Both the position numbers and the translations under genes were made by a program. The notes beneath the pieces were generated by a model. The model was not told where the DNA came from. It ran no database searches and was given only the letters and a program-made list of their open reading frames with translations. DNA of 39,372 nt from Comamonadaceae bacterium (lineage in GTDB: Bacteria; Pseudomonadota; Gammaproteobacteria; Burkholderiales; Burkholderiaceae_C), in NCBI GenBank assembly GCA_947373245.1, contig CANBWY010000017.1, positions 1 through 39,372 of the forward strand. The letters are read 5' to 3'. Below, one piece after another: positions 5,332 to 25,304 of the stretch (the first letter of the stretch is position 1; each line of letters starts with the position of its first letter).

Positions 5332-7524
5332 TCAAACAAGGCCAGCAGCCTTCACTTTGCTAGGCAAGAACGGGACCGAACGCAAACGAACACCCGTCGC
5401 ATCAAAAACTGCATTCGATATCGCCGATGGCACCACCGTGGGAGCCATCTCACCAGCGCCCCACACGGGCATGTCAGGCCGATTGATGAGGCTAACTTGG
5501 ATACGTGGCACCTCTGGGAATCGCAAGATCGGGTAACTGGCCCAGTCGGTGCTGGTCACATGGGTTTGGTCAAATTTAAGTTCTTCAAGCAAGGTTCGGC
5601 TGATGGTTTGCACAATGCCGCCTTCGATTTGATTGATGGCACCATCAGGGTTGATCACCTGTCCACAATCGTGGCTGCACCACACATCGGTTACACGAAT
5701 GGCGCCCGTGCTGCGGTTCACTTCCACCTCCGCAACCAACGCCACAAATGTGCGCTCGTTGTCGTACTTCACAAACGACACACCACGGCCGCGCACTAAA
5801 TTGCCTGAAGTCTTTGCAGCTGGTGACGAACGGCTTTGCCATTTCGACAAACGTGCCACATCTTCCAATACAGCGCGCGCACGCGGTTCTTTGAGATAAG
5901 TCAGACGCCATTGAAGCGGGTCAGCGCCGGCAGCAGCGGCCAACTCGTCAAAGAACGATTCGTTGGCAAATGTGTTTTGCATGCGCCCTGGTGTGCGCAA
6001 ATGCGAGGTACGAAAAGCCGTGTCGGCCAGACGATGCACTTCAGTTTGGATGTTCGGGAACTGGTACAGCACATCGGCATTCTTTTGCAAGTTGCCCGTG
6101 TAATGCCCATTGCGCTTGACGCCAGACAGCACCGCCGCTAAGAGCGGAAACTCTTCAAGCGTGCCGTTGGCTTGCGCAATGAAAAACTCAGACCGCCAAG
6201 CCACCGGTTGACCTGCGGCGTCGAGGCCCGCTTCCATGTCCACCAAAGTGGGCGGGCTTTTAGGGTCCCAGCCATGCTCATCGGCGCGCATCCATTGCAC
6301 ACGCACGGGCGCACCCGCCAGCTGAGACACCAAGGCAGCATCACCCGAACAGTCTTCGTGACCATTGCGGCCATAGCAACCTGCGCCATCGAGATAAATC
6401 ATCCGAACTCGGTCTTTAGGAATATCCAGCACGGTGGACAATTCTGCTTGCAATGAGTGCGTGGCTTGCGACGCGGACCACACGGTACAGCTGCCATCTT
6501 TGAAATCAGCCACCGCACACGAAGGCCCGATGGAGCCATGCGTGTGTGGCGCGAAGTCGTAGGTGGCCTTGATGCGCTTAGCCGCACCCGCCAACGCGTT
6601 GGTGGCATCACCCGTTTTGATGACGGCTTCGTTTTTGGCCACAGGCAGTTTGCGCCAGTAGTCATAAAGCCTGGCTTGTTCGGGCAGCGTGTTGGGGGTT
6701 GCCCATTGCGTCTTGAGCGCGCGCGCTGCTTTGACGGCGGCCCACTCGGTCTTGCAGACCACGGCCAAAAAATCTTGTTTACGAACCACTTGGACAAAGC
6801 CATTCACTTTGCGCGCTGCCGAGTCGTCCACACTGAGCAATTTACCGCCCTGCCCGCTCGGGCGAATCATGCGAGCATGCAACATACCAGGCAACTTGAA
6901 GTCGTGCATGTAGAGAAACTTGCCCGTGAGTTTGTCCGGAATATCCACACGCGCAACGGACTGACCCACGATCTTATGCTCAGCATAAGCTTTGATAGGG
7001 GCTTTGGGGTCGAGCTTCACGTTCAGTGATGCACTATCCAAGAGTGCGGCGTAGCTGATCTTTCTGTCGCCTTGACGCGTTGAAATCACGCCATCGTGCA
7101 CGGTCAGATCTGCGGCATTCACTTGCCAACGTGTCGCGGCAAAAGACAACAAAGCCTGACGGGCGCTGGCCGCAGCTTGACGTAGCGTGCCGCCCCCGTT
7201 TTGCAAACTCAAACTGCCCGCCGACTGGCCTTGGTCTAGCGTTGTCAAGGTGTCGCCCATGACCATATCAATCTGCTTGAAATTGACATCCAACTCTTCT
7301 GCCACCATTTGCATGAGTGCGGTGCGCACACCCGTGCCTAAATCCACCTTACCCGAATAAACGGTCACGCGGCCATCTGCATTCATGCCAAGCCAAGCAT
7401 CCACCTGTGTGCCGACCATGCTCTTGGTAGATGCATGCACCTGTGCAAGACTTTGCGCGCTAGCCACAAAAGAGAATGAAACGACAAGGCTACTACCTGC
7501 CTGTAAAAATTTACGACGTTGCAT
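5332..7524 (-). CDS. Molybdopterin-binding large subunit, xanthine dehydrogenase / isoquinoline 1-oxidoreductase family, Tat-exported
   Basis: A molybdenum hydroxylase large subunit of 730 residues, matching the single-chain IorB-like group that pairs with a small 2Fe-2S protein. The N-terminus MQRRKFLQAG followed by a hydrophobic run and ASAQS is a twin-arginine signal, so the folded enzyme is probably exported with its partner. The conserved GAGE near the C-terminus contains the glutamate that acts as base in this family. The gene lies three bases after the 2Fe-2S subunit. Known members oxidise N-heterocycles, nicotinate or aldehydes, so sequence alone does not give the substrate. Position in the same run as benzoylformate decarboxylase, which releases benzaldehyde, suggests aromatic aldehyde oxidation to the acid. 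No cytochrome subunit or XdhC-like maturation factor is nearby. Confidence 0.82.
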   Translation of the reverse strand: MQRRKFLQAGSSLVVSFSFVASAQSLAQVHASTKSMVGTQVDAWLGMNADGRVTVYSGKVDLGTGVRTALMQMVAEELDVNFKQIDMVMGDTLTTLDQGQSAGSLSLQNGGGTLRQAAASARQALLSFAATRWQVNAADLTVHDGVISTRQGDRKISYAALLDSASLNVKLDPKAPIKAYAEHKIVGQSVARVDIPDKLTGKFLYMHDFKLPGMLHARMIRPSGQGGKLLSVDDSAARKVNGFVQVVRKQDFLAVVCKTEWAAVKAARALKTQWATPNTLPEQARLYDYWRKLPVAKNEAVIKTGDATNALAGAAKRIKATYDFAPHTHGSIGPSCAVADFKDGSCTVWSASQATHSLQAELSTVLDIPKDRVRMIYLDGAGCYGRNGHEDCSGDAALVSQLAGAPVRVQWMRADEHGWDPKSPPTLVDMEAGLDAAGQPVAWRSEFFIAQANGTLEEFPLLAAVLSGVKRNGHYTGNLQKNADVLYQFPNIQTEVHRLADTAFRTSHLRTPGRMQNTFANESFFDELAAAAGADPLQWRLTYLKEPRARAVLEDVARLSKWQSRSSPAAKTSGNLVRGRGVSFVKYDNERTFVALVAEVEVNRSTGAIRVTDVWCSHDCGQVINPDGAINQIEGGIVQTISRTLLEELKFDQTHVTSTDWASYPILRFPEVPRIQVSLINRPDMPVWGAGEMAPTVVPSAISNAVFDATGVRLRSVPFLPSKVKAAGLV

Positions 7525-7527
7525 AAC

Positions 7528-8019
7528 TCAAACCTTTTTCAAAGTCGTGACAGGGACCATTGCCAACGCATCAGATGCGCGTTTGACGGCCTTGACGATG
7601 CGTGTGTGCGTGCCACAGCGACATAAGTTGGCGGCCAGCGCTTCTTGAATCTGCCCTTCAGTGGGACGTGCATTCTTCGACAGAAAATCGACCGATTGCA
7701 TCACCATCCCGTTGATGCAGTAACCGCACTGCGCAGCCTGCTCATCAATGAACGCTTGTTGCACGGGATGTGGTTTTTCAGGCGTTCCCAGTCCCTCAAG
7801 GGTGACGATCTTGCCGCCTTTCAGACTCGCAACTGGGGTGACGCAACTTCGCACCGCTTGTCCGTTGATCAGCACTGTGCAAGCGCCACACTGACCTAGG
7901 CCACAGCCATATTTGGGACCATGCAAAGCGAGGTTGTCTCTCAGCACATAGAGCAATGGTGTGTCACTGTCAGCGTCAACCGTGACAGCCTTACCGTTCA
8001 CATTCAGCGGGTATTTCAT
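7528..8019 (-). CDS. 2Fe-2S small subunit of the molybdenum hydroxylase
   Basis: A protein of 163 residues with the two-domain layout of IorA/CoxS-type subunits. The plant-ferredoxin-like cluster is bound by Cys39, Cys44, Cys47 and Cys59 (CGLGQCGAC and a later RSC). The helical-domain cluster is bound by Cys98, Cys101, Cys133 and Cys135 (QCGYC and LCRCGTH). All eight cysteines are present. It carries electrons from the molybdenum centre of the adjacent large subunit to an acceptor not encoded here. It has no signal peptide, so if the complex is periplasmic it must be carried out with the Tat-tagged large subunit. An AAGGA site precedes the ATG. A strong stem-loop lies between this gene and the TRAP permease upstream. 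Confidence 0.88.
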   Translation of the reverse strand: MKYPLNVNGKAVTVDADSDTPLLYVLRDNLALHGPKYGCGLGQCGACTVLINGQAVRSCVTPVASLKGGKIVTLEGLGTPEKPHPVQQAFIDEQAAQCGYCINGMVMQSVDFLSKNARPTEGQIQEALAANLCRCGTHTRIVKAVKRASDALAMVPVTTLKKV

Positions 8020-8052
8020 TGTTTCTTGTCCTTGTTATTGGAAGGCTGATGT

Positions 8053-8082
8053 TCAGCGCAGCACCATGCTCTGCTGCGCTGA
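8053..8082. other. Strong intercistronic stem-loop
   Basis: TCAGCGCAGCA (8053-8063) and TGCTGCGCTGA (8072-8082) are perfect 11-base inverted arms around an eight-base loop. The stem sits between the TRAP large permease and the 2Fe-2S subunit in the minus-strand transcript. No T-run follows on either strand, so it is not a textbook intrinsic terminator. An mRNA-stabilising or processing stem that sets different levels for transporter and enzyme is more likely. Confidence 0.6.
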
Positions 8083-8117
8083 CGGAGGTTAGGCGTTGGT
8101 AATGTCATGACAAGTCC

Positions 8118-9419
8118 TTATCCCATGTGTTGGGGGAGATACATCGCAATCACGGGGAAGGCGATCAAAATCAGCAGCCGGATCAGGTCGGTGATCACAA
8201 AGGGAATCACGCCTTTAAAAATCGTCGTGAAACTCACGTCTTTCACGACACTTTTAATGACAAAGACGTTCATACCCACGGGCGGATGGATCAAGCCCAG
8301 CTCCACAGTCATCACGATGATGATGCCGAACCAGATCGGATCGAAGCCCAAGTCCATGATGACGGGGTAGATGATGGGCACGGTCAAGATAATCATCGCC
8401 ATGGCATCCATCAAGCAGCCCAGCACCAGATACATCACCATGATGAGTGCCAGCACGCCGTAACGTCCAACGCCCAGCCCCGTTAGAAACTCGGTCAGCC
8501 GCTGTGGTGTTTGTGTGATCGTCAGAAAGTAGCCAAACAACAACGCGCCAATCAATACCGTGAAAACGGCCGCCGAGGTGCGCGTGGCCTGAAGCAAGGC
8601 TTCTCTGATTTGGGCGCGTGACAGCTTGCCGCGCAACACGCCGAGCAAGAAGGCGCCACCAGCCCCCATGCCACCAGCTTCCGTCGGCGTGAACAGGCCT
8701 CCATACAAGCCGCCAATCACAAAAGTGAACAACACCAACGGTGCCCACACATCCTTGAGACCCTTCAAGCGCTCTTTCCACGGCTTGAACTCACCAGCGG
8801 GCAACAAGTCAGGCTTGATCTTGACGATCAAAATAATCGTGATCACATACATGGTGATGGCCAACAGACCCGGCAAGATACCGGCCATGAAGAGTTTGCC
8901 AATGTCTTGCTGCGTGATGATGGCGTAGACCGCGAGCACCGTCGAAGGTGGCAGCATGGCACCCAGTGTGCCGCCCGCCGCGATCACACCCGTCGAGAAG
9001 GATTGCGGATAGCCATAGCGGCGCATCTCGGGATAAGCCACCCCCGCAAAGGTCGCGGCAGTGGCCACTGAAGAGCCACAAATCGCTGCAAAACCACCGC
9101 AAGCCACCACCGTAGCAACGCCGAGTCCACCCCGCAAATGCCCAACGAAACTGTTGGCAGCACGGAACAATTCGTTGCTCACCCCCGAGATGGTCACAAA
9201 GGCCCCCATCAACATGAACATCGGAATCACGCCAAACGTGTAATCCGTCACCGTGCGCATCGAGGTCTGCCCAATGAGCTTCATCGCCGGCCCAACGCCC
9301 ACGATGAAGCTGTAACCCGCAACGCCGACAAACCCCATCGCCATGCCGACGGGCACGCGCAATAGCATCAAGATAAAAAGCACAACAAAGCCAAGCAAGG
9401 CCACTGCATCAGGACTCAT
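8118..9419 (-). CDS. dctM: TRAP transporter large permease (DctM family)
   Basis: The large membrane subunit of a tripartite ATP-independent periplasmic transporter, 433 residues with about 12 hydrophobic segments. Typical DctM features are the start MSPDAVALLGF, RVPVGMAMGF, PPSTVLAVYAI in the middle and IHPPVGMNVFVI near the end. The open frame extends 29 codons further upstream, but that would overlap the small permease; the ATG used here has GGAG six bases before it and leaves a ten-base gap. It uses the sodium or proton gradient to import an acid delivered by the DctP protein encoded upstream. Context suggests an aromatic carboxylate such as benzoylformate or mandelate, which is inference. 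Confidence 0.9.
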   Translation of the reverse strand: MSPDAVALLGFVVLFILMLLRVPVGMAMGFVGVAGYSFIVGVGPAMKLIGQTSMRTVTDYTFGVIPMFMLMGAFVTISGVSNELFRAANSFVGHLRGGLGVATVVACGGFAAICGSSVATAATFAGVAYPEMRRYGYPQSFSTGVIAAGGTLGAMLPPSTVLAVYAIITQQDIGKLFMAGILPGLLAITMYVITIILIVKIKPDLLPAGEFKPWKERLKGLKDVWAPLVLFTFVIGGLYGGLFTPTEAGGMGAGGAFLLGVLRGKLSRAQIREALLQATRTSAAVFTVLIGALLFGYFLTITQTPQRLTEFLTGLGVGRYGVLALIMVMYLVLGCLMDAMAMIILTVPIIYPVIMDLGFDPIWFGIIIVMTVELGLIHPPVGMNVFVIKSVVKDVSFTTIFKGVIPFVITDLIRLLILIAFPVIAMYLPQHMG

Positions 9420-9429
9420 GTCTCCAACC

Positions 9430-9942
9430 TCATTCGTTATATTTAGGTTCGGCTTTGTCTTGCAGCAACTCGGGCTGGAAAACGAGTCGATAAGTTCTGA
9501 TGCCAATCAGGAGCACGGCCGACACATCGCCCAACCAACCCACGGCAAAAAATGGCCAGGTTGGAATATTCAGGTCATAGGTCAACACGTTGTCGATGTA
9601 AGTTTGTTGAACTTTGTCGAACAGCGTGATGGTTTGAATCGTGACGACAAACAGCAACACCAAGGTCGCAAAGACATCGATCCAACGCTTGGCCCTAGGC
9701 CCGGCATTGCTCCACACCAGATCAACCGTGATGTGAGCCCCCCGGTAACTGGTGGCGGCAATTCCCCAAAAAATCAAGATGCCCAGCAGCATGCGACCGA
9801 AGTCGTAACTGTCGGGTATCGAGGTATTGAAGAATTTGCGCAAGAGCACCGAGACAAAAATATCCAGCGCCACCAAACCGACAAAAATCGCTGCAAGCCA
9901 TTCAATCGTGTCGATCACACGATCCATGAAATTACGTTTCAC
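9430..9942 (-). CDS. dctQ: TRAP transporter small permease (DctQ family)
   Basis: A protein of 170 residues with four predicted membrane helices, the normal size for DctQ. Family markers are the first helix region TIEWLAAIFVGLVALDIFVS, a FWGIAATSYRGAHITVDLV stretch in the middle, and a third helix followed by a short loop. It forms the membrane complex with the DctM protein encoded ten bases downstream. The start codon is GTG, supported by GAGGAG six bases before it and by homology over the first residues. It sits between dctP and dctM in the usual P-Q-M order. Confidence 0.88.
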   Translation of the reverse strand: MKRNFMDRVIDTIEWLAAIFVGLVALDIFVSVLLRKFFNTSIPDSYDFGRMLLGILIFWGIAATSYRGAHITVDLVWSNAGPRAKRWIDVFATLVLLFVVTIQTITLFDKVQQTYIDNVLTYDLNIPTWPFFAVGWLGDVSAVLLIGIRTYRLVFQPELLQDKAEPKYNE

Positions 9943-9988
9943 GCGCAGCTCCTCAAGTCAGATGGGTGGTTGTACATGCGCATGAGGT

Positions 9989-11005
9989 TCACAGTCCGGC
10001 TTTGTATTTGGTCAGGTTCTGTTTCAACGAATTCATCACGGCCACGGGATCTTGCCCCGCCTTCTTCATCGCATCGGCCCACTGCGCTTCGGCAGGGCCC
10101 ATGGCCTTCATCCACTGCGCTGATTGATCGGGCGTCAGCTTGACAATCTCGTGTCCTGACTGAGCAGCCGTCTTGGCGCGCCCCCCAAATTCGAAGTCGG
10201 CCCAAGGGCTCGCGACTTTTTCAGCCCACTCGGTCGTGCAGTGATCGTCGATCACTTTTTTCTGCGCCACAGAGAGTGATTCGTACTTGGCCTTGTTCAT
10301 GCCCCAAACGAACGGTGTGGTGTAGAGCGGAAAGTCAATGTGGTACTTGGTCACCTTGTCGATGCCGAACAGGCCGATTGAAGCCCACGGAAAGGCAATC
10401 GCATCAGCCACGCCACGCTCCAGCATGTCGCGCGACTCGGGTGCAGACGCCTGCACGTTGGTACCGCCCAGCGTGGTAATGATTTGCCCGACGGTGCTGG
10501 TCGCAGGGCGTACTTTCATGCCATTGATTTCTGAGGGTAAGGTGATTTTTTTAACCGAGTGGATCGTGCCTGGGTCATGCGCAAAGGCAAAGCAAAACTT
10601 GATGTCTTTCATCTCCTTGGCGGCATAGGGTCGGTACCAAGCGTCCAATGCGGCCGAGCCACCTTTGGCATTGGCAAACAAGAACGGCAGCGAAGCGCCG
10701 GCCATCACAGGAAAGCGACCTGGCTGGTAGCCCGGATTGATGTAAGTGAAGTCTGCAATGCCATCACGCGCCATGTCGTAATGGTCAAAGGCTTTGCCCA
10801 ATTGTTCAGACGGAAATAGGGTCGCCGTGATGGAACCCCCTGAGGCCTTCTTGATGTCCTCCGCCCAAGCCAGTAGCGATGGGTTTAAGGGATGCTGCGC
10901 TGGAACCCAGCTCGACATCCGCAGTTGAACGGGCTTATCTTGGGCTTGAGCGCCTAAGTTGACCAAGGCCAATGCGGCCAATGCGATACGTAATGTTTTC
11001 TTCAT
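9989..11005 (-). CDS. dctP: TRAP transporter periplasmic solute-binding protein (DctP family)
   Basis: An exported protein of 338 residues with a clear signal peptide (MKKTLRIALAALALVNLGAQAQ). The mature part starts DKPVQLRMSSWVP and continues with ADFTYINPGYQPGRFP and PSEINGMKVRPA; the arginine in the last motif is the conserved carboxylate-binding residue of DctP proteins, so the ligand is an organic acid. The frame opens 11 codons further upstream, but the ATG used has an excellent AAGGAG site seven bases before it and gives a clean signal peptide. Together with dctQ and dctM it makes a complete TRAP system. Its place just after a benzoylformate decarboxylase suggests an aromatic 2-oxo or 2-hydroxy acid as ligand. 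Confidence 0.9.
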   Translation of the reverse strand: MKKTLRIALAALALVNLGAQAQDKPVQLRMSSWVPAQHPLNPSLLAWAEDIKKASGGSITATLFPSEQLGKAFDHYDMARDGIADFTYINPGYQPGRFPVMAGASLPFLFANAKGGSAALDAWYRPYAAKEMKDIKFCFAFAHDPGTIHSVKKITLPSEINGMKVRPATSTVGQIITTLGGTNVQASAPESRDMLERGVADAIAFPWASIGLFGIDKVTKYHIDFPLYTTPFVWGMNKAKYESLSVAQKKVIDDHCTTEWAEKVASPWADFEFGGRAKTAAQSGHEIVKLTPDQSAQWMKAMGPAEAQWADAMKKAGQDPVAVMNSLKQNLTKYKAGL

Positions 11006-11042
11006 GTCTCTCTCCTTTGTTTGAATTTTCTTCAGCACTTTT

Positions 11043-11068
11043 CTCGTTGAATCTTATCGTTCAGCGAG
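11043..11068. other. Inverted repeat upstream of dctP
   Basis: CTCGTTGAA (11043-11051) and TTCAGCGAG (11060-11068) can pair over nine bases with one G-T pair and an eight-base loop. A smaller repeat, CAGTG (11094-11098) and CACTG (11104-11108), lies next to it. Both are in the 119-base gap between the mdlC stop and the dctP start. No T-run follows, so this could be an operator, a weak attenuator or an mRNA processing site. Confidence 0.35.
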
Positions 11069-11124
11069 CCACCTCAAAACGGGTCGTGTCGCGCAGTGGT
11101 CTGCACTGTTGGGGGGCACACGGT

Positions 11125-12759
11125 TCACGCAACTTCCACCTCCACCAAAATCGGCACGGGCGAGCGCAGCGCCTGCAACAAGGTGTCACGCAAGGTGGCG
11201 GCATCTTCAACCCGCACGCCATCACAGCCCTGCCCCTTGGCCAATGAAACGAAATCGATGTTCGGCAGATCTGTGCCTTGCACGTGTTCGGTGTCTGCAA
11301 AACCGAACACCGAAGCGAACTCTTGCAGCGCGGCATAGCGACGGTTCTTGACGATCACAAACACGATCGGCAATTTGAGCTGCGCAGCACTCCACAAGGC
11401 CTGAATGCCATACATGCTGGAGCCGTCGCCCATCAAAGCAATCACCTGGCTGTCCGGTTTGGCCAACGCAATGCCCACAGATGCGGGCATGCTGTGACCC
11501 AGCCCTCCGCTGCACATGGTGTAGAAGGTTTCGCTGCGCAAAATTGGCAAATAAGAATGCATGACCGAACGTGCAGTCGGCGCTTCCTCAACAATGATGC
11601 TGGCGGGGTCGCGAACGTCTGCCAAGGTTTGCAGCAAATAGGCGACCGACATGCGCTGGGAGGCATCCGTCAGCTGAGGTGGTTCGGCACGCGGTGGCTT
11701 GGCACGTGCGGGCGGCGAGGCCCGAGGAGCCGGTGCGGGTCGGGCCAGCAGGTCAAGCACACTGAGACGAATGCTGGCGACCACGGCAGTACCCTGTGGG
11801 GCCCAAGCTGCAATCGTGGGATCCTCGATCAACTGGCACAGCGTTGCGCCAACCGGCACATGCGGCCCAGCACCTTCGATGTGATAAGTGAACGCGGGGG
11901 CGCCGATGGCGAAAATCATGTCATGGCCCGCCAGGTTTTGCACGATTTTTTCGCGCATCGCCGGCAAGAAGCCAGCAAACAGCGGGTGGTCTTCGGGAAA
12001 GCCGCAGCGCCCCGACATGGGTGCCACCCAGACACGGGCGTTGTGCATTTCGGCTAAGCGCACCACTTCGTTCCAAGCATGGCCACGGTCCACCGATGCA
12101 CCAATGACAAAAGCAGGACGCAAGCTCGCATCCAGTGCGTCGCCAATTGACTTCAAAACAGAGGGCTCAGGGCGGGTTTCTGTGCTGACGGTGCGTGGCT
12201 CAACCCACTCCGTGGGTTGGTCCCAATCATCCGCCGGAATGGAAACCAGCACGGGACCCCGTGGCTCTTGCATGGCCATGTAATAGGCTCTGGCAATGGC
12301 GAGGGGCACATCTTGGGCACGGGCGGGTTCACAACTCCATTTGACATAGGGTTTGGGAAGCTCGGTGGCCTGCGCTGAGAACAGAAAAGGGTCGAACGGC
12401 ATGATGGAACGCGCCTGTTGTCCGGCGGTGATCACCATAGGCGTGCGGTTCTTGAATGCCGTGAAGATGCTGCCCATCGCATGACCGACGCCGGCAGCCG
12501 AATGCAAATTCACAAATGCGGCTTTGCGCGTTGCTTGGGCATAGCCGTCGGCCATCGCCACGACCACGGACTCCTGCAAGCCAAGAACATAGCGAAAGTC
12601 TTCTGGAAAATGACGAAACAGGGGCAGCTCCGTAGAACCCGGGTTGCCAAAAATAGCCGTCATACCAAAGTGGCGCATGAACTTGATGACCGCATCGCGA
12701 ACCGTGGGCCGACTCTCTCGGGCGGCATCTGTAGAAGTAGAGGAAGAGAGGGCTTGCAT
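11125..12759 (-). CDS. mdlC: Benzoylformate decarboxylase (thiamine diphosphate enzyme)
   Basis: A thiamine diphosphate enzyme of 544 residues, closely resembling Pseudomonas putida benzoylformate decarboxylase. Shared features are GNPGSTELP with the catalytic serine (Ser42), LQES with the cofactor-activating Glu63, NLHSAAG with His86, and a TYH motif with His293, corresponding to Ser26, Glu47, His70 and His281 of the Pseudomonas enzyme. The cofactor motif starts GDGSSMYGIQALWSAAQ. It splits benzoylformate into benzaldehyde and CO2 in the cytoplasm. The frame extends 25 codons further upstream, but only the ATG used here has a ribosome site (AAGGA, about seven bases before). A LysR gene diverges from it, and TRAP and molybdenum hydroxylase genes follow on the same strand. 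No mandelate dehydrogenase is present, so benzoylformate or a ring-substituted relative is the likely input. Confidence 0.85.
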   Translation of the reverse strand: MQALSSSTSTDAARESRPTVRDAVIKFMRHFGMTAIFGNPGSTELPLFRHFPEDFRYVLGLQESVVVAMADGYAQATRKAAFVNLHSAAGVGHAMGSIFTAFKNRTPMVITAGQQARSIMPFDPFLFSAQATELPKPYVKWSCEPARAQDVPLAIARAYYMAMQEPRGPVLVSIPADDWDQPTEWVEPRTVSTETRPEPSVLKSIGDALDASLRPAFVIGASVDRGHAWNEVVRLAEMHNARVWVAPMSGRCGFPEDHPLFAGFLPAMREKIVQNLAGHDMIFAIGAPAFTYHIEGAGPHVPVGATLCQLIEDPTIAAWAPQGTAVVASIRLSVLDLLARPAPAPRASPPARAKPPRAEPPQLTDASQRMSVAYLLQTLADVRDPASIIVEEAPTARSVMHSYLPILRSETFYTMCSGGLGHSMPASVGIALAKPDSQVIALMGDGSSMYGIQALWSAAQLKLPIVFVIVKNRRYAALQEFASVFGFADTEHVQGTDLPNIDFVSLAKGQGCDGVRVEDAATLRDTLLQALRSPVPILVEVEVA

Positions 12760-12873
12760 TAGAAATTCCTTGCACTCGGCAGAAGTGAGACGCGACGCTT
12801 GACAGGGCGGAGTATCAACAGATTGATCATGCATGAGAATTGCTTTATTTGGTAAAAGTCATTACATTTGGTT

Positions 12874-13782
12874 ATGGACTTTGACGGACGACAACTCTCT
12901 GCATTTCTAGCCATCGTGGCCCACGGAAGCCTCGGGCGCGCGGCCGAGGTGTTGCACATTACTCAACCGGCCCTGAGCAGAACGGTGAAACGCTTAGAGG
13001 GCCAATTGGGGGCCCCGCTGTTCGAACGCAACTCCAAGGGCATGCGCTTGACCCCGGTTGGGGAAGCGCTGTTGCCCCACGCCACCTTGATGGGGCGGGT
13101 GGCGGATCACGCCAGTGAGGAAATTAATGCGCTGCGTGGTTTGGCCAAAGGCACGATCAAAGTGGGTGGTATTGCCAGCGCTGTCAGTCTCATCCTGCCC
13201 CTTGCGCTTCACCGCGTGTTCACGCAGTGGCCGAACTTACAAGCCCATGTCATCGAAGGTGTTTGGGACCGCTTGGCAGAGGCACTGACCAAACATGAGA
13301 TCGATCTCGCGCTCGGTGTGGCCACCATTGAGAGCGACGAGATTGTGCCAATTCCCGATTGTGATTGGGAGGACAAAAGCTATATCGTCGCGGCCATGGA
13401 TCACCCGTTGCGGCAAAAAAAGGACCTGCAACTGACCGACACCTTGCAGCACTCTTGGGCCTGCACACCGCGTGGCACGGCACCTTTCACGCACATGCAG
13501 CAAACATTCAAATCGCACGGCCTGCCCTGCCCCGATGTGGTCGTTGAGTCCCGATCAATCATTGCCTTGAAAAGCTTGGTGTCTCACGCTGGCTTTTTGT
13601 GCTGGATGGCGGGACCCATGTTCGAGGATGAGCGCCTCGCCCAACAAATGGATGCGCTGCCGATTGCGGGCCTCTCGACGACCCGTCAGTTAACGGTGTT
13701 TCGCAGGCGCAATGGCATCTTGCCTGGGCCGGCACTGAAGCTGCTCGAGGAATTGAGGCAGCTCACAAAGATCGCCAAGTAA
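12874..13782 (+). CDS. LysR-family regulator, divergent from mdlC
   Basis: A regulator of 302 residues with the standard N-terminal helix-turn-helix (about 5-65): LSAFLAIVAHGSLGRAAEVL, then TQPALSRTVKRLEGQLGAPL and FERNSKGMRLTP. The C-terminal two-lobed effector domain follows, with VGGIASAVSLILPLAL early on. The ATG is preferred over an in-frame TTG two codons earlier. It is divergent from mdlC with 114 bases between the two starts, the usual LysR arrangement, so it probably controls the mdlC-TRAP-molybdoenzyme run. It may also act on the Liv importer that begins 116 bases downstream on its own strand. The inducer is unknown; benzoylformate is a reasonable guess. Confidence 0.85.
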   Translation: MDFDGRQLSAFLAIVAHGSLGRAAEVLHITQPALSRTVKRLEGQLGAPLFERNSKGMRLTPVGEALLPHATLMGRVADHASEEINALRGLAKGTIKVGGIASAVSLILPLALHRVFTQWPNLQAHVIEGVWDRLAEALTKHEIDLALGVATIESDEIVPIPDCDWEDKSYIVAAMDHPLRQKKDLQLTDTLQHSWACTPRGTAPFTHMQQTFKSHGLPCPDVVVESRSIIALKSLVSHAGFLCWMAGPMFEDERLAQQMDALPIAGLSTTRQLTVFRRRNGILPGPALKLLEELRQLTKIAK

Positions 13783-13898
13783 CGCCCATCTGGCGAGACG
13801 GCCTCCATACAAAGGGTAATCCCTCGCGTGGTATTTCGTATAGGCACCCCTGACTTTCGCCTTTACCATCGTTGAACATTACCAAGGGCGAGACGTTA

Positions 13899-14666
13899 GT
13901 GGACTGCATCCTAGAAACCAAACAGCTGACCAAAGAATTCAAAGGCTTTATCGCCGTTGACCACGTCAACCTTCGCGTCAAACGGGGCAGCATTCATGCC
14001 TTGATTGGTCCAAATGGGGCGGGCAAAACGACTTGCTTTAATTTGCTGACTAAATTTCTTAAGCCGACCTCTGGACAAATTCTTCTGGATGGCCAAGACA
14101 TCACACGGCAAGAGCCAGCAGAAATTGCGCGCCTTGGGGTGATTCGGTCTTTTCAAATTTCAGCCGTGTTTGCGCACCTGACTGTTCTTGAAAATGTACG
14201 GGTTGCTTTGCAGCGACAACTCCAAACCTCGTTTCATTTTTGGAAGTCAGAGAATTCTTTGAATGAATTGAACGATCAAGCCATGGCGCTGTTAAGCGAA
14301 GTCGACTTGGCAAACTTTGCCAGCCTCACTGCAGTTGAATTGAGCTACGGACGCAAACGTGCACTTGAAATAGCCACCACGCTGGCCATGGCTCCTAAAT
14401 TGATGCTTTTAGACGAACCCACCCAAGGCATGGGCCTCGAGGACGTGGACCGCATTCGCCAATTGATCAAGAAAGTAGCCGCAAGTCGCACCGTGCTCAT
14501 GGTCGAGCACAACATGAGCGTAGTGTCCAGCATTGCCGACACCATCACCGTGTTGCAACGGGGCGCCACGCTGGCCGAGGGCACCTACGCGCAAGTGTCA
14601 AAAAATCCTGCCGTGATCGAAGCCTACATGGGCAGCACCAACAAAGAACTCGCGGGAGCACACTGA
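13899..14666 (+). CDS. livG: Liv-type ABC transporter ATPase (LivG family), first cassette
   Basis: An ATPase of about 255 residues for branched-chain amino acid-type import. Motifs are Walker A GPNGAGKT, the Q-loop in IRSFQISAVF, the signature LSYGRKRALE, Walker B LMLLDEP and the switch histidine in VEHNM. The start is uncertain. A TTG nine codons upstream (13872) keeps the frame open, but the GTG used here has AAGGGCGAG in front of it and gives the usual family length. It heads a five-gene cassette, G-F-K-H-M, with one base between it and the next gene. ATPase-first order is common in Liv cassettes that serve aromatic acids. The substrate is unknown. Confidence 0.88.
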   Translation: MDCILETKQLTKEFKGFIAVDHVNLRVKRGSIHALIGPNGAGKTTCFNLLTKFLKPTSGQILLDGQDITRQEPAEIARLGVIRSFQISAVFAHLTVLENVRVALQRQLQTSFHFWKSENSLNELNDQAMALLSEVDLANFASLTAVELSYGRKRALEIATTLAMAPKLMLLDEPTQGMGLEDVDRIRQLIKKVAASRTVLMVEHNMSVVSSIADTITVLQRGATLAEGTYAQVSKNPAVIEAYMGSTNKELAGAH

Positions 14667-14667
14667 C

Positions 14668-15369
14668 ATGGCCGCTTTGCTTGAAGTCGAAAATTTGCAG
14701 GGCTGGTATGGCGAATCACATGTGCTGCACGGCGTGAATTTCCAAGTGAATGAAGGCGAAGTCGTCACGATCTTGGGCCGCAACGGCGCAGGTCGTACCA
14801 GCACGATGCGCGCCATCATGGGCTTGATCGGCACACGCACAGGTTCTATCCGAATTCGGGGCACCGAAACCATCGGACTCGCTACACACCGCATTGCAGG
14901 CTTAGGTCTGGGCTACTGTCCTGAAGAGCGCGGTATCTTTTCGAGCTTGTCGACAGAAGAGAACTTGCTCCTGCCGCCTACGCTTGCGCCAGGCGGCATG
15001 AGCTTAGAAGAAATTTACGACATGTTTCCCAACCTGAAAGAACGGGCCAGCAGCCAAGGCACCCGTTTGTCGGGTGGTGAGCAGCAAATGTTGGCCGTTG
15101 CACGCATCCTGCGCACGGGCGCCAAGTTGCTGTTGTTGGATGAAATTTCGGAAGGTCTTGCCCCCGTCATCGTGCAAAAACTAGCGGCCATGGTGCAAGC
15201 GCTTCGCCAACGCGGCTATACGATCGTCATCGTTGAACAAAACTTCACCTTTGCCGCGCCCCTCGCCGACCGGTTCTTGGTCATGGAGCATGGAGAGGTG
15301 ATTCAAGAATTCACGCAGGCAGAGCTCCCCTCTCGCATGGCGCGATTACACGAATATTTGGGTGTCTAA
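14668..15369 (+). CDS. livF: Liv-type ABC transporter ATPase (LivF family) with Arg in Walker A
   Basis: An ATPase of 233 residues, LivF-like throughout: signature LSGGEQQ (134-140), Walker B LLLLDE (154-159) with the catalytic glutamate, and the VEQNF end of the switch region. The odd feature is the Walker A loop at 37-45, which reads GRNGAGRTS: the lysine expected at position 43 is arginine (codon CGT). The second LivF in this window keeps the normal lysine. Lysine normally contacts the ATP phosphates, so this site may bind or hydrolyse ATP poorly and the LivG partner may do most of the work. The rest of the protein looks intact, which argues against a pseudogene. It lies one base after livG. 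Confidence 0.9.
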   Translation: MAALLEVENLQGWYGESHVLHGVNFQVNEGEVVTILGRNGAGRTSTMRAIMGLIGTRTGSIRIRGTETIGLATHRIAGLGLGYCPEERGIFSSLSTEENLLLPPTLAPGGMSLEEIYDMFPNLKERASSQGTRLSGGEQQMLAVARILRTGAKLLLLDEISEGLAPVIVQKLAAMVQALRQRGYTIVIVEQNFTFAAPLADRFLVMEHGEVIQEFTQAELPSRMARLHEYLGV

Positions 15370-15414
15370 CAACGCCCTCTTGGTCTTGAGAAAAACTTTT
15401 AACAGGAGATAGTC

Positions 15415-16623
15415 ATGAAACTTAAAAAAATCATTTCAGCATTGGGCATTGCCGGACTCAGCATGGTGGCTAGCCATGCACAAGCCCAAGTGTCTGGCGA
15501 TGTCATTCGCATAGGCTTCATCACCGATTTATCTGGTCTTTATGCTGACATTGACGGCCCAGCGGGTGCTGAGGCTATTCGCATGGCCATCGCTGATTTA
15601 GGTGGTGCCGTGGCCGGTAAAAAAATCGAGCTGCTGGTCGCCGATCACCAAAACAAACCCGACGTTGCCGCAGCAAAAGCACGCGAATGGTTTGACACCC
15701 AAGGCGTTGACATGCTGGTGGGCGGCACCAACTCTGGCACAGCCTTGGCCATGTCAAAAGTTGCACAAGAAAAGAAAAAACTATTCATCGCCATTGGTGC
15801 TGGCACATCAGCTTTGACCAACGAACAGTGCAGCCCGACGACCGTCCACTATGCCTATGACACCGTGGCCTTGGCCAAAGGCACAGGCGGCGCCGTGGTG
15901 AAAGCGGGAGGCAAAAGCTGGTATTTCTTGACTGCTGACTACGCCTTTGGCGCGTCATTGCAAAACGACACGGCCAACGTGGTGAAGGCGGCTGGTGGCA
16001 CGGTGGTTGGGGCGGTGAAGCACCCGCTGTCTGCCAGTGATTTCTCATCCTTCTTGCTGCAAGCACAAGGCAGCAAGGCTCAAATTTTGGGTCTGGCAAA
16101 CGCCGGCGGCGACACCATCAATGCCATCAAAGCAGCCAACGAATTCGGCATTACCAAAAGCATGAAATTGGCGGGCTTGTTGGTCTTTATCAACGACATC
16201 CATTCTTTGGGCTTGAAGTCCACCCAAGGCATGTACTTGACCGACAGCTGGTACTGGAACAAGGATGCTGAAACACGCACCTGGAGCCGCAAGTTCTTTG
16301 AGAAGCTCAAACGCATGCCCTCCTCTTTGCAAGCGGCTGATTACTCTGCGGCGCTGCAATACCTTCAAGCCGTCAAAGCCACTGGCACTGATGACACAGA
16401 CAAGGTATTGGTACAAATGAAAAAAACCAAAATCAACGATATGTTTGCCAAAGGCGGCTACATCCGAGACGATGGCCGCATGATCCATGACATGTATTTG
16501 ATGCAGGTGAAAACGCCCGACAAATCGGTCGAGCCATGGGATTACTACAACGTCGTGGAAACGATCAAAGGTGAGACAGCTTTCACGACCAAAGCTGAAT
16601 CAAAGTGCGCCTCCTGGAAATAA
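15415..16623 (+). CDS. livK: Liv-type ABC transporter periplasmic binding protein, first cassette
   Basis: An exported protein of 402 residues of the receptor-family ligand-binding type. The signal peptide is about 25 residues and ends ASHAQAQ. The mature start VIRIGFITDLSGLYADIDGP and the later VDMLVGGTNSGTALAM are typical of the group that binds aromatic acids and other non-amino-acid ligands. AGGAG precedes the ATG. It sits between the ATPase and permease genes of the same cassette. The ligand cannot be given from sequence; nearby genes suggest an aromatic acid such as benzoylformate, salicylate or a hydroxybenzoate. Confidence 0.88.
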   Translation: MKLKKIISALGIAGLSMVASHAQAQVSGDVIRIGFITDLSGLYADIDGPAGAEAIRMAIADLGGAVAGKKIELLVADHQNKPDVAAAKAREWFDTQGVDMLVGGTNSGTALAMSKVAQEKKKLFIAIGAGTSALTNEQCSPTTVHYAYDTVALAKGTGGAVVKAGGKSWYFLTADYAFGASLQNDTANVVKAAGGTVVGAVKHPLSASDFSSFLLQAQGSKAQILGLANAGGDTINAIKAANEFGITKSMKLAGLLVFINDIHSLGLKSTQGMYLTDSWYWNKDAETRTWSRKFFEKLKRMPSSLQAADYSAALQYLQAVKATGTDDTDKVLVQMKKTKINDMFAKGGYIRDDGRMIHDMYLMQVKTPDKSVEPWDYYNVVETIKGETAFTTKAESKCASWK

Positions 16624-16639
16624 TTAAATAAAGCCACCC

Positions 16640-17524
16640 ATGGAAATTTTCGGCATTCCCATTCAAGCGTTTTTGGGCCAGCTTTTGCTAGGCCTCGTGA
16701 ACGGTTCTTTTTATGCAATGCTGAGCCTTGGGTTGGCGGTTATTTTTGGCCTACTCGGGATCGTGAATTTTGCGCACGGTGCTTTCTACATGATGGGCGC
16801 TTACGTCGCCTTCGTGTCGTTTGATGTATTTGGTCTGAACTACTGGATCGCTTTGCTCCTCGCCCCCTTGCTGGTCGGGGTGGTGGGCGTAGTCCTGGAG
16901 CGAACCTTGCTCAAACACCTGTACAAAATTGATCCCATCTATGGTCTCTTGCTCACCTTTGGACTGGCGCTCATTGCGGAAGGTGTTTTTAGAGAATTTT
17001 TTGGCGTATCGGGACAGTCCTATCCCGTGCCAGAGCTATTGCAAGGTGCGACCAATCTTGGATTCATGATTTTGCCCAACTACCGTGCGTGGGTTGTCTT
17101 CGCATCGCTCAGTGTGTGTTTGGGGACTTGGTTCGTCATTGAACGCACGCGTCTGGGCTCGTACCTGAGGGCGGGCACAGAAAACCCACAACTGGTCCAA
17201 GCATTTGGCATCAACGTTCCGATGATGGTCATGCTCACCTATGGCGCAGGCTGTGGCTTGGCAGCGTTCGCGGGTGTCTTAGCAGCGCCTGTGATTCAAA
17301 TCAATCCACTCATGGGAAGTAATTTGATTATTGTTGTCTTCGCCGTCGTTGTCATCGGCGGCATGGGCTCCATCATGGGTGCCATCCTCACAGGGGTGGC
17401 ACTGGGATTGATTGAAGGCTTGACCAAAGTGTTTTATCCCGAAGCGTCCAACATTGTTGTGTTTGTCATCATGGCCATTGTTTTGTTGATTCGTCCTGCC
17501 GGACTGTTTGGGAAAGAAGTCTGA
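16640..17524 (+). CDS. livH: Liv-type ABC transporter permease (LivH family), first cassette
   Basis: A membrane protein of 294 residues with about eight helices. LivH markers are LVNGSFYAMLSLGLAVIFGL, GIVNFAHGAFYMMGAY and VVIGGMGSIMGAIL toward the end. It pairs with the LivM protein, whose start codon overlaps its stop (TGATG), so the two are translationally coupled. The gap after the binding protein is only 16 bases, with no clear ribosome site. Confidence 0.92.
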   Translation: MEIFGIPIQAFLGQLLLGLVNGSFYAMLSLGLAVIFGLLGIVNFAHGAFYMMGAYVAFVSFDVFGLNYWIALLLAPLLVGVVGVVLERTLLKHLYKIDPIYGLLLTFGLALIAEGVFREFFGVSGQSYPVPELLQGATNLGFMILPNYRAWVVFASLSVCLGTWFVIERTRLGSYLRAGTENPQLVQAFGINVPMMVMLTYGAGCGLAAFAGVLAAPVIQINPLMGSNLIIVVFAVVVIGGMGSIMGAILTGVALGLIEGLTKVFYPEASNIVVFVIMAIVLLIRPAGLFGKEV

Positions 17525-18495
17525 TGCACATGCCAACTCAAACGACGATGACACACAGAAACAGCCAATGGGCATGGGTTGGATTGTCAATCTGCTTAGC
17601 GTTGCTGATTGCAGCCCCCTTCATTGGCATCTACCCCATCTTCATGATGAAGGCGTTGTGTTACGCCATGTTTGCCATGGCCTTCAATTTATTGATGGGC
17701 TTCACAGGCTTGCTTTCTTTTGGGCATGCCGCATTCTTTGGGGCGGCGGGCTACACCACCGGGCTGTTGATGCGTTCATTCGACTGGTCACCTGAAATGG
17801 GCATTCTGGCCGGCACAGTGACCGCGGGCGTGTGCGGATTAGGCGTGGGATTGATTGCCATTCGTCGCCAAGGCATTTACTTCGCCATGGTGACCTTGGC
17901 CATGGCACAAATGTTTTACTTCGTTTTTCTGCAAGCCCCTTTCACCGGGGGTGAGGATGGTTTGCAAGGCGTGCCGCGTGGCAAGTTGCTAGGCCTCATT
18001 TCTCTGGAAAATGACCTATCGCTTTATTTTGTTGTGCTGACCGTCTTTGTTGCCATCTTTGTGTTCATCATTCGCATCGTTCACTCCCCCTATGGGCAGG
18101 TGCTCAAAGCGATTCGTGAAAATGAGTCGCGTGCCATTTCGTTGGGTTACAACGTGAACCAATACAAGCTGATGGCCTTTGTTCTATCAACGGCCATTGC
18201 AGGTTTGGCGGGCTCCATGAAAACGTTGGCCCTTGGCTTTGTGACATTGAACGATGCACATTGGTCACTGTCGGGTGAGGTGATTTTGATGACCTTACTA
18301 GGTGGCTTAGGCACTTTCACGGGCCCAGCACTTGGGGCCTTCACCATCATTGGCCTTCAGAACTTCTTAGCCGATCAAGTGGGCTCTTGGATTAACGTCA
18401 TCATCGGTGTGATTTTTGTGATTTGCGTTGTCGCTTTTAGACGTGGATTTGTGGGTGAGTTAAAGCATTGGATGACGCTTCGCAAGAAATCCTAA
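17524..18495 (+). CDS. livM: Liv-type ABC transporter permease (LivM family), first cassette
   Basis: A membrane protein of 323 residues, the second permease of the cassette. LivM markers are AMAFNLLMGFTGLLSFGHAA, IAIRRQGIYFAMVTLAMAQM and VKAIRENE-like text (LKAIRENESRAISLGYNV). It forms the heterodimeric channel with LivH. Its ATG overlaps the livH stop. It is the last gene of the cassette; the Stealth-type gene starts 54 bases later and is not obviously part of it. Confidence 0.92.
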   Translation: MHMPTQTTMTHRNSQWAWVGLSICLALLIAAPFIGIYPIFMMKALCYAMFAMAFNLLMGFTGLLSFGHAAFFGAAGYTTGLLMRSFDWSPEMGILAGTVTAGVCGLGVGLIAIRRQGIYFAMVTLAMAQMFYFVFLQAPFTGGEDGLQGVPRGKLLGLISLENDLSLYFVVLTVFVAIFVFIIRIVHSPYGQVLKAIRENESRAISLGYNVNQYKLMAFVLSTAIAGLAGSMKTLALGFVTLNDAHWSLSGEVILMTLLGGLGTFTGPALGAFTIIGLQNFLADQVGSWINVIIGVIFVICVVAFRRGFVGELKHWMTLRKKS

Positions 18496-18549
18496 AGCCC
18501 CATTAACCCGACTCAACCGAGGATAAAGCCTCACTTCTAAAATGAAGTC

Positions 18550-19629
18550 ATGCACCCCTCCTCTAACATCGACATTGTTTACCTGTGGGTCGATGGAAAC
18601 GATGATGGATGGCGCGCCAAGCGGCAAAACGCCTACAAGCAAATTTGTGCCGATGGCGACCATTCCGTTGCGCGATTTGGCAATGTGGAGGGCCGCTTTC
18701 GTGACAACGACGAGTTGCGTTTCAGTCTTCGGGCATTAGAAACATTTTTTCCTGACCATGGCCATGTCTACATCGTGACCGATGGGCAAGCGCCACATTG
18801 GTTGCAAACTTCATCTCAGTTAACGCTGATCGATCACCGCGACTTGATTCCCGAGGCATCCCTGCCCACCTTCGACTCGGGCAATATCGAGTCTTATATC
18901 CACCGCATTCCTGGTCTGTCCGAGCGCTATTTTTATTTGAATGATGACGTTTTTTTTGGTGCCCCGGTGCGTGTGGAAGATTGGTTTTTCGAGGGCGGCT
19001 TCTACGTTGCGTGGTCCGATGACCCGGAGGTACTCGGACACGCCATGCAAACCGACGGCACCTCTTTAGAAAATGCCAGTCGCCTGTCTCGGCAATGGCT
19101 GCAGGCCAAAGCTGAACAAATTCAATTGACGCATGCAGCGCCATTGAGACAGCTGAACAGCCGCTACACCCATACCGCTCGGACCTTCGCGCATTCACCA
19201 CGTCCCATGCTGAAATCGATCTTGATAGAGCTCGAGCACGAAGCGATTGACTTATTTGAGCGCGTGCGTTCGACAGTTTTTCGTCGCTGGGACAAGCCCA
19301 CCATCGTTTCAGACTTTGTGCTGCGATGGGCCCTCGCACATGGAGTTGCCCAAATTAAAAATCATGCTTATCTTTATATTTCCACAGGCGACGCATTGGC
19401 GAGTCAAGACCTTCAACACCTGAAGACGCAGTTTGGAAAACTTGACTTCTTTTGCCTCAACGACACCACCGATGACGCGCTGACCACAGACCCTCGGCTT
19501 ACACGCGTTCGCAGCGTGCTCATAGACCTCTTGCCCACCCCATCCGTACATGAAGTGGCACCCGATACGACACAAACGCCCTCGCACCATGCGAAACCTG
19601 AGCGAGCGACGGTTGAATGCGACGCCTGA
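18550..19629 (+). CDS. Stealth-family protein (sugar-phosphate transferase of capsule type)
   Basis: A cytoplasmic-looking protein of 359 residues with the order of conserved regions of the Stealth family: CR1 IDIVYLWVDGND (7-18), CR2 FRDNDELRFSLRALETFFP and YIVTDGQAPHWL (50-85), then FDSGNIESYIHRIPGLSERY and LNDDVFFG (108-137), CR3-like SPRPMLKSILIELE (about 215-230), and a CR4-like CLNDTTDD. Known members transfer hexose-1-phosphate from nucleotide sugars to build capsule or exopolysaccharide with phosphodiester links. It stands alone among catabolic genes, with no other glycan gene nearby. There is no clear Shine-Dalgarno site, and ACTTC (18533-18537) and GAAGT (18544-18548) could form a small hairpin right before the ATG. 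The acceptor and product are unknown. Confidence 0.82.
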   Translation: MHPSSNIDIVYLWVDGNDDGWRAKRQNAYKQICADGDHSVARFGNVEGRFRDNDELRFSLRALETFFPDHGHVYIVTDGQAPHWLQTSSQLTLIDHRDLIPEASLPTFDSGNIESYIHRIPGLSERYFYLNDDVFFGAPVRVEDWFFEGGFYVAWSDDPEVLGHAMQTDGTSLENASRLSRQWLQAKAEQIQLTHAAPLRQLNSRYTHTARTFAHSPRPMLKSILIELEHEAIDLFERVRSTVFRRWDKPTIVSDFVLRWALAHGVAQIKNHAYLYISTGDALASQDLQHLKTQFGKLDFFCLNDTTDDALTTDPRLTRVRSVLIDLLPTPSVHEVAPDTTQTPSHHAKPERATVECDA

Positions 19630-19836
19630 TTAACGCTGTTGGTTTTTGACGCCTATGAGATGGAAGAGCCTCAACGTGGCGTAAAGCGTAGGCCAAAAAT
19701 TGGGCGCAAGTGCGATGCGCCGCTACGGTGTCCATCATGCGACTCAAGAATCTGTAAACGATTGATAAATCGGGTTATCCCTAGGACGTTATAGATTCAA
19801 ATGTCTCGTATCAACACGTTAAACAAGGCGCTTCGC
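19630..19836. other. Intergenic gap with small inverted repeats
   Basis: This gap of about 200 bases has no supported gene. GGCGCA (19703-19708) and TGCGCC (19716-19721) could form a hairpin, without a following T-run. CGATT (19759-19763) and AATCG (19768-19772) form a second, smaller repeat. A TATAGA-like -10 lies near 19790, but no -35 sits at the right distance. A promoter for the exported-protein block is expected here and could not be placed with confidence. Confidence 0.4.
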
Positions 19837-20481: not shown

Positions 20482-20523
20482 ACACACCACGCACCCCTCA
20501 GTCAAACCTACGGAGAAATCACC

Positions 20524-23176: not shown

Positions 23177-23500
23177 CAGCTCAGGCGAATTCAGGTTTAA
23201 AAAAACACGTTGATTCTCTATGCGCACCGGATACACGCGGATGCCTTGCGTTAGCGGCGCACACAGCGCCTGACCGGTGCAAACATCGAATCGGCCTTGA
23301 TGCAAAGGACATTCAATTTCTTTGCCTTCCAGAAAACCATCACTCATGCGTCCTAGACCATGGGAGCACAGGTTGTCGGTGGCATAAATTTCACCATCGA
23401 CCTCGTACAAGGCAATCTCTTTTCCGTCCACATGCACAGCGGTGACATCACCCACAGGCACAAAATCAACCTCAAGAACTTCAATCCATTTTTCTGACAT
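23165..23500 (-). CDS. nagAb: Rieske ferredoxin of salicylate 5-hydroxylase (NagAb-like)
   Basis: A small Rieske protein of 111 residues. The 2Fe-2S cluster is held by Cys45 and His47 (CSHGLG) and Cys64 and His67 (CPLHQGRFD). Length and sequence fit ferredoxins of naphthalene and salicylate hydroxylases. It passes electrons from a reductase to the NagGH oxygenase. AAGGA precedes the ATG, and the gene follows nagH by 12 bases. In Ralstonia U2 the same ferredoxin serves both naphthalene dioxygenase and salicylate 5-hydroxylase; here no naphthalene dioxygenase is present. The reductase (NagAa) is also absent from the window. Confidence 0.88.
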
Positions 23501-23512
23501 GGTGGGCTTTCC

Positions 23513-23998: not shown

Positions 23999-24000
23999 CG

Positions 24001-25260: not shown

Positions 25261-25304
25261 GGTCTGCCTCCTTTGTTTTGGCAACATTCTGAACAGCCCA
25301 CCTT

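Follow-up and report, generated by a model that had tools for sequence, protein, structure and literature searches.

What is made of benzoylformate when the gene for its decarboxylase heads a run of genes that closes with an exported-type molybdenum hydroxylase? The question is raised by contig CANBWY010000017.1 of a Comamonadaceae bacterium (assembly GCA_947373245.1), the 39,372 nucleotides of which are called the window here. On its minus strand lie mdlC, the tripartite ATP-independent periplasmic (TRAP) transporter genes dctP, dctQ and dctM, and the genes for the small and large subunits of the hydroxylase, MoS and MoL (together MoSL). The window makes up a complete contig of a 2.29-Mb, 112-contig assembly that is 84% complete, so statements of absence are bounded by the draft. 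All six open reading frames (ORFs) were confirmed where an earlier note on this DNA, which proposed a self-contained benzoylformate-to-benzoate operon, had placed them (Table 1). Our comparisons suggest that the locus is a rearranged operon of the bzf type, in which the TRAP system replaces a major facilitator superfamily (MFS) carrier and the molybdenum hydroxylase sits where an aldehyde dehydrogenase is missing.

The identity of mdlC as a benzoylformate decarboxylase gene was borne out: the product scored 841.8 bits with NCBIfam model NF005485 (cut-off 493) and aligned over its full length with benzoylformate decarboxylases of solved structure in the PDB. Residues S42, E63, H86 and H293 of MdlC align to what we take to be the catalytic positions of the Pseudomonas putida enzyme; at the position of H293 the aligned PDB chain shows a Tyr. 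An alternative, longer mdlC ORF, starting at 12834, is possible. A mandelate operon was ruled out, as no gene for mandelate dehydrogenase (a flavin mononucleotide (FMN)-dependent 2-hydroxyacid dehydrogenase) was found in the window; elsewhere in the draft there were one strong and three weak FMN_dh matches.

The usual surroundings of mdlC were taken from the best 80 loci among 272 relatives in named genomes (56–73% identity); the set is skewed to close relatives and leaves out 39 plasmid records with mdlC. A divergent homologue of the window's LysR gene (>50% identity) lies at most 700 bp from mdlC in 59 of the 80, and 54 of the 80 have an aromatic-acid MFS carrier. The strict pattern GTAATG-N-CTT...CAAT occurs in 32 of these 59 LysR-mdlC intergenic regions; the background is a total of 38 matches, on either strand, in the 80 loci, which amount to 3.18 Mb of single-strand sequence. 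Because this operator-like pattern is common to the window and the bzf-type intergenic regions, the LysR-mdlC pair, together with its control site, seems to descend from bzf-type clusters. Searches of the window for the MFS aromatic acid carrier and for a porin gave insignificant matches only.

An aldehyde dehydrogenase of one family follows mdlC directly on the 3' side in 71 of 77 testable loci (tblastn; L113, L182 and L183, with too short a flank, were omitted). The six loci without a directly following dehydrogenase are L158, L167, L189, L190, L191 and L192; in L191 the gene lies at a greater distance downstream. By its position the enzyme is probably the benzaldehyde dehydrogenase; the representative from L119 falls short of the NCBIfam cut-off in each of its 25 best models. 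With this protein as the query no match was obtained in the window at E-values up to 1, and no Aldedh gene was present among the window genes scanned, in agreement with the earlier claim that the locus has no NAD-dependent benzaldehyde dehydrogenase. Outside the window the draft holds five Aldedh genes and one weak match, the best being 36% identical to the L119 dehydrogenase. Four of the five strong ones were typed; they pass the cut-offs for HpaE, SSADH, ExaC and MMSDH.

The products of dctP, dctQ and dctM all pass their Pfam cut-offs and make up a complete TRAP system. In DctP, the motif MKVRP at residues 163–167 contains an Arg that presumably binds a carboxylate. Among 149 related genomes DctP relatives of at least 55% identity were found at 40 places (not counting the window), and in 34 of these a gene resembling the alpha subunit of indolepyruvate-ferredoxin oxidoreductase (IOR) lies at most 6 kb from dctP. 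The pairing was scored with 54 IOR places; the remaining six DctP contigs, checked against the full IOR list, have no IOR match on the contig, and one of their genomes, G054, has none at all. The IOR naming is based on one representative, whose beta subunit scores 494 bits, above the family cut-off of 348. Identities of dctP are mostly 64–75% in the relatives and 79% in Variovorax. Neighbourhoods were inspected at 18 of the 40 places and in three of nine plasmid records. In Variovorax PDNC026 the genes for IOR alpha and then IOR beta come first, followed by an FMN 2-hydroxyacid-dehydrogenase-like gene and by dctPQM (77–84% identity for dctPQM); in Bosea a thiamine diphosphate (ThDP) enzyme, 24% identical to MdlC, comes after dctPQM, and in Neorhizobium dctPQM is preceded by a gene for a 61%-identical relative of the missing dehydrogenase and followed by a ThDP gene that is apparently broken. 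The window's own genome gave no IOR match at 1e-100. Since DctP relatives adjoin 2-oxoacid-oxidoreductase-like genes, benzoylformate is a credible cargo of DctPQM. More broadly, an aryl 2-oxo- or 2-hydroxyacid is the most likely cargo and, judged from the neighbourhoods, MdlC would stand in for IOR at the window locus. A literature search found nothing pairing a benzoylformate decarboxylase with a TRAP transporter; for phenylglyoxylate and TRAP transporters together it gave a single paper, on marine Dehalococcoidia. If the assignment is true, this TRAP clade gains a testable cargo class, the aryl 2-oxoacids, in a field where sequence-based assignment of cargo is usually poor.

Two further arrangements of such genes were noted. 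DctP-like genes of a different clade adjoin mdlC at L174, L180, L181, L184, L185 and L191 (Leptothrix, Hydrogenophaga and Paenalcaligenes), accompanied by a dctM-like gene at L174 and L191, and all six loci retain the usual aldehyde dehydrogenase; it seems that TRAP genes were added to mdlC clusters on more than one occasion. At L096, L100, L102, L103 and L106 (in the genus mates G019, G051, G073, G083 and G012), IOR-like alpha and beta genes and dctPQM stand with genes for a 4HBT-type thioesterase, an AMP-forming coenzyme A (CoA) ligase and a DpgC-like protein (domain assignments are from L096 alone), and boxB and boxA adjoin this cluster in L096 and L100. The DpgC-like protein scored 384.8 bits, under the DpgC cut-off of 530, and matches to it at 1e-60 occur in 15 of the 149 genomes. 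DpgC presumably produces arylglyoxylates from arylacetyl-CoA, and the cluster may represent an aerobic route from arylacetate via arylglyoxylate and aroyl-CoA to the box pathway; a literature search found nothing linking DpgC with phenylglyoxylate.

The molybdoenzyme shows the features of the xanthine-oxidase family of molybdenum hydroxylases: MoS has both [2Fe-2S] domains and eight cysteines, and MoL has both molybdenum cofactor (MoCo) domains and the catalytic Glu of the GxGE motif (E692), which is kept in 33 of 33 aligned rows. Maturation genes of the XdhC type are present. Like large subunits of the IorAB/AldGH type, MoL combines an N-terminal MoCo stretch with a twin-arginine leader (MQRRKFLQ). 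The earlier note had singled out the twin-arginine translocation (Tat) signal on the large subunit; the signal is there, but it is usual in the relatives rather than odd, as the twin Arg is found on the large subunit in 27 of the 33 rows by eye and in all 16 members of the MoL clade. A cytoplasmic MoSL was ruled out on the last of these counts. The same note had taken PaoABC as its model, and this is not supported. The PaoC model gave 165 of 1180 bits with MoL and the PaoA model 141 of 322 bits, PaoC matches MoL in pieces only, and no flavin adenine dinucleotide (FAD) subunit turned up among the window genes that were scanned; a PaoABC-type assignment was thus ruled out. The chain 8gy3_C, the large subunit of an aldehyde dehydrogenase, matches MoL over residues 2–725 and is the sole full-length, single-stretch match among the PDB matches listed. 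Judged by its sequence, the molybdoenzyme is IorAB/AldGH-like and not of the PaoABC type.

MoL was followed through 33 other loci (23 from the 70 genomes, out of 149, that gave a match, seven from other genomes and three of 330 plasmid records, several being short contigs); locus counts are based on tblastn, called ORFs being crude in G+C-rich DNA. The neighbours of MoSL differ widely across these loci. In Cupriavidus necator, hydratase, acetaldehyde dehydrogenase and 4-hydroxy-2-oxovalerate aldolase genes are followed by MoS and MoL (64% for MoL) at the end of a meta-cleavage operon, and in G073 (L043) boxB, boxA, MoS (66%) and MoL (51%) lie on the same strand, with a gap of ~225 bp. Three of the loci (L039, L040 and L050) hold a dctM-like gene of another clade, 28–29% identical. 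An aromatic-aldehyde role of MoSL is favoured by the 8gy3_C neighbour, by the two homologues that end aromatic operons and by the missing dehydrogenase.

Orthologues of MoSL, 91–92% identical, are present in two draft sister genomes, G082 and G009. There, a gene for a ModA-like binding protein lies just upstream of MoS-MoL, and a divergent metallohydrolase gene and an SBP_bac_3 gene are nearby; no mdlC match was found at 1e-80, and DctP matches are 31% only. By blastn, the similarity of both genomes to the window covers 5342–8022 (83–84% identity), breaks off at 8022, three bases short of the MoS start codon, and is picked up again at 20512, immediately ahead of the metallohydrolase gene. A block of ~12.5 kb (dctMQP, mdlC, LysR, liv genes, a Stealth gene and orf226) occupies the position of the sisters' ModA-like gene. 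The metallohydrolase, which we take to be of the UPF0173 type, adjoins MoSL in three of the 33 other MoL loci (G082, G009 and G408). An assembly chimera at 8022 is unlikely, since the sequence on either side matches one and the same locus in the two sister genomes. The gene order of the window was looked for in other genomes and not found: none of the 80 mdlC loci carries MoS or MoL within its flanks, and none of the 33 MoL loci from other genomes or records carries mdlC at 1e-8. An ancient conserved operon was ruled out on these counts. The operon looks like a mosaic and the join of mdlC-dctPQM to MoSL like a rearrangement; the sister genomes, and the lack of this order elsewhere, suggest that the block was gained. 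To call the operon self-contained was too strong, as the sisters keep MoSL with other partners. If true, this would be a traceable three-module operon with recombination edges visible against sister genomes.

The gap between dctM and MoS measures 98 bp and has no terminator-like site, so the mdlC promoter could also drive transcription of MoS. The gap contains a hairpin with a 9-bp perfect inverted repeat and an 8-nt loop (11 pairs in the fold, no T tract), a pattern that occurs once in the window. The 101-nt gap stretch folds at −27.2 kcal/mol (z −2.5), and 4 of 200 shuffles were as good. As for the fate of the product, the box genes that the earlier note placed about 16 kb away were found: boxR, a benzoate-CoA ligase gene ~15.6 kb from mdlC, boxA, and a boxB cut off by the contig end, which at 320.6 bits stays under the TIGR03225 cut-off of 499, as expected of a fragment.

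In the pathway that we propose, DctPQM would import benzoylformate or a ring-substituted form of it, and MdlC would decarboxylate the imported acid in the cytoplasm. Benzaldehyde is membrane-permeant; it would cross the membranes freely and reach the periplasm, where MoSL would oxidise it to benzoate and pass the electrons to the respiratory chain. Benzoate would then re-enter, perhaps through the Liv importer as the earlier note supposed, be converted to benzoyl-CoA and enter the box pathway. Because of this permeance, and because periplasmic oxidation of an aldehyde followed by uptake of the acid has been published for hydroxymethylfurfural with PaoEFG (in passages of PMC12064950 and PMC11144800), the export topology is, by analogy, not a strong objection. 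Import and decarboxylation of benzoylformate that feed benzoate to the box pathway are, in our estimate, highly probable. That MoSL is the benzaldehyde oxidase is the best single reading of its sequence and surroundings, to be held tentatively. It is possible, if more doubtful, that a periplasmic molybdoenzyme displaced a cytoplasmic NAD-linked benzaldehyde dehydrogenase, with a pathway that crosses the membrane several times (the acid enters, the aldehyde leaves and the acid returns). The locus would in that case unite three modules, a Burkholderiales LysR-mdlC pair, a TRAP system from 2-oxoacid-oxidoreductase-like clusters and a resident MoS-MoL, and a toxic aldehyde would be handled outside the cytoplasm in a pathway that makes it inside. 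What stands of the benzoylformate-to-benzoate operon as first proposed is mdlC, a fitting TRAP clade, the missing dehydrogenase and a nearby route from benzoate to benzoyl-CoA; the PaoABC model and the self-contained character do not stand.

Several observations weigh against MoSL as the benzaldehyde oxidase and against the pathway built on it. The absent 16% of the genome could hold a dehydrogenase, and general aldehyde dehydrogenases could act on benzaldehyde. No acceptor resembling AldF or PaoG was found in the draft, where none of ten PF13442 matches has three CXXCH motifs (one haem model, 84%-complete draft). The order mdlC-dctPQM-MoS-MoL is seen nowhere else, and, as close MoSL orthologues live without mdlC, the older job of MoSL was different or broader. 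The stretches fetched for the 33 other MoL loci include a TctC-type receptor gene in 19 cases and boxA in one; the nearest tree relatives of G073 (G012, G019, G027 and G083) are without boxA in the fetched stretch, and a Methylobacterium copy of MoSL is surrounded by insertion sequences. The strong hairpin in the gap could reduce read-through. As to the transporter, the IOR alpha representative stays under its family cut-off (254 of 651 bits), and the Bosea ThDP enzyme is by model not a benzoylformate decarboxylase (141 of 493 bits).

In principle, mdlC-dctPQM could have landed upstream of a resident MoS-MoL by chance, with MoSL keeping an older role alongside the metallohydrolase and the ModA-like protein, and benzaldehyde being handled by a general or undetected aldehyde dehydrogenase. 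The two sister genomes, which keep MoSL with the ModA-like gene and the metallohydrolase and are without mdlC, are consistent with this, as are the widely varying MoSL neighbourhoods, the five Aldedh genes of the draft and the gap hairpin. Such an accident sits less easily with the edge of the replaced segment, three bases before the MoS start codon: the former upstream gene of MoSL was removed, and MoSL therefore probably depends on a new promoter. Moreover, the gene that is missing is precisely the dehydrogenase usual at mdlC. We regard a chance neighbourhood as a serious possibility but doubt it. MoSL might instead act before import, oxidising aryl keto-aldehydes (phenylglyoxal, lignin-type aryl C2 fragments) in the periplasm to benzoylformate, which would then pass through the TRAP system to MdlC. 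This would need no re-entry step and suits a TRAP clade that fits aryl 2-oxoacids, and 4-hydroxybenzoylformate has been proposed to derive from a keto-aldehyde precursor (in a passage of PMC7760541). It leaves the benzaldehyde step without a dedicated enzyme, however, and its substrate is a putative one; we consider it unlikely. We think it very unlikely that MoSL is an N-heteroaromatic hydroxylase of the isoquinoline or nicotinate type, unrelated to aldehydes. The domain order is that of what we take to be the same structural class, and the ModA-like and metallohydrolase partners have no link to aldehydes, but the best full-length PDB match is an aldehyde dehydrogenase and some MoSL homologues end aromatic-ring operons. 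Overall, a benzaldehyde-oxidising MoSL that follows import and decarboxylation remains our preferred, if tentative, reading.

Table 1. Features of the window relevant to the mdlC-dctPQM-MoSL locus, with their positions and the evidence for each.
Feature	Position	Strand	Evidence
MoL, Tat-type molybdenum-binding large subunit, IorB/AldH-like	5332..7524	-	MoCoBD_1, MoCoBD_2; 8gy3_C
MoS, [2Fe-2S] subunit; by eye no signal peptide	7528..8019	-	PF00111, PF01799; eight Cys
Block missing at the matching place in G082 and G009	8023..20511	.	blastn collinearity break
Hairpin without T tract, dctM-MoS gap	8055..8080	-	inverted-repeat pattern and fold
dctM, TRAP large permease	8118..9419	-	PF06808, TIGR00786
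dctQ, TRAP small permease	9430..9942	-	PF04290
dctP, TRAP solute-binding protein, Sec-like leader (by eye)	9989..11005	-	PF03480
mdlC, benzoylformate decarboxylase	11125..12759	-	NF005485; PDB benzoylformate decarboxylases
Probable LysR operator, GTAATG-N-CTT ... CAAT	12839..12865	.	aligned with 13 chosen bzf-type loci
LysR regulator, BzfR-like, divergent from mdlC	12868..13782	+	HTH_1 and LysR_substrate domains
Metal-dependent hydrolase, older MoSL neighbour	20524..21375	+	NF001911, 203.3 bits, cut-off 144
SBP_bac_3 protein, older MoSL neighbour	21382..22179	+	adjoins MoSL in G082 and G009
boxR	26845-27729		
Benzoate-CoA ligase, likely benzoate sink	28345..29964	+	TIGR02262, 804.3 bits, cut-off 375
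boxA	37429..38709	-	TIGR03224, 728.7 bits, cut-off 459
boxB, truncated by contig end	38731..39372	-	TIGR03225 positions 261-471 of 471, 320.6 bits

Some other genes of the window were noted in passing. The Stealth-family gene (18550–19629) lies among transport and aromatic genes. At 23165–25413 there are genes for a Rieske ferredoxin and an AndAd/AndAc-like ring-hydroxylating dioxygenase, with scores under the anthranilate dioxygenase cut-offs, and a gene of the PnbB (4-hydroxylaminobenzoate lyase) family (27881–28345) stands immediately upstream of the benzoate-CoA ligase gene.

Among known enzymes, PaoABC of Escherichia coli belongs with MoSL in the xanthine-oxidase superfamily and acts on aromatic aldehydes. 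For MoSL, by contrast, we found no FAD subunit, and its scores with the PaoC and PaoA models stay far under the cut-offs; the Tat signal of PaoABC is presumably on the other subunit (the PaoA side). The enzyme in PDB 8gy3, which by family name and source we take to be a membrane aldehyde dehydrogenase of the AldFGH type, resembles MoSL in that MoL aligns over its whole length and has an RR leader, and differs in that no cytochrome subunit was found at the window locus. A three-subunit, flavin-containing Burkholderia enzyme that is reduced by benzaldehyde, as described in part of PMC5131310, has a subunit plan different from that of MoSL. The PaoEFG enzymes of Pseudomonas taiwanensis and P. putida, so far as passages of PMC12064950 and PMC11144800 describe them, are like MoSL in having [2Fe-2S] and molybdopterin subunits of the exported type, and MoSL, too, would oxidise an aldehyde outside the cytoplasm. 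The likeness is one of subunit plan, and unlike in PaoEFG no cytochrome c subunit was found beside MoSL or in the draft.

With the TRAP-IOR-like clusters of related species the window shares dctP; where those clusters carry 2-oxoacid ferredoxin-oxidoreductase-like genes, the window carries mdlC. The published benzoylformate cluster is bzfRABCD of Pseudomonas sp. LLC-1, in which BzfC is the benzaldehyde dehydrogenase, and the layout seen in the mdlC relatives (LysR, mdlC, dehydrogenase, MFS) is close to it as described in passages of PMC7760541. As in bzfRABCD, the LysR gene of the window adjoins a benzoylformate decarboxylase gene, no mandelate dehydrogenase was found in the window, and benzoylformate would be converted towards benzoate. 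Unlike bzfRABCD, the window has a TRAP system instead of a detectable BenK-like MFS carrier or porin, and it has no benzaldehyde dehydrogenase, the unit ending with a molybdenum enzyme. Set beside bzfRABCD, the locus would be a new variant of the known benzoylformate operon.

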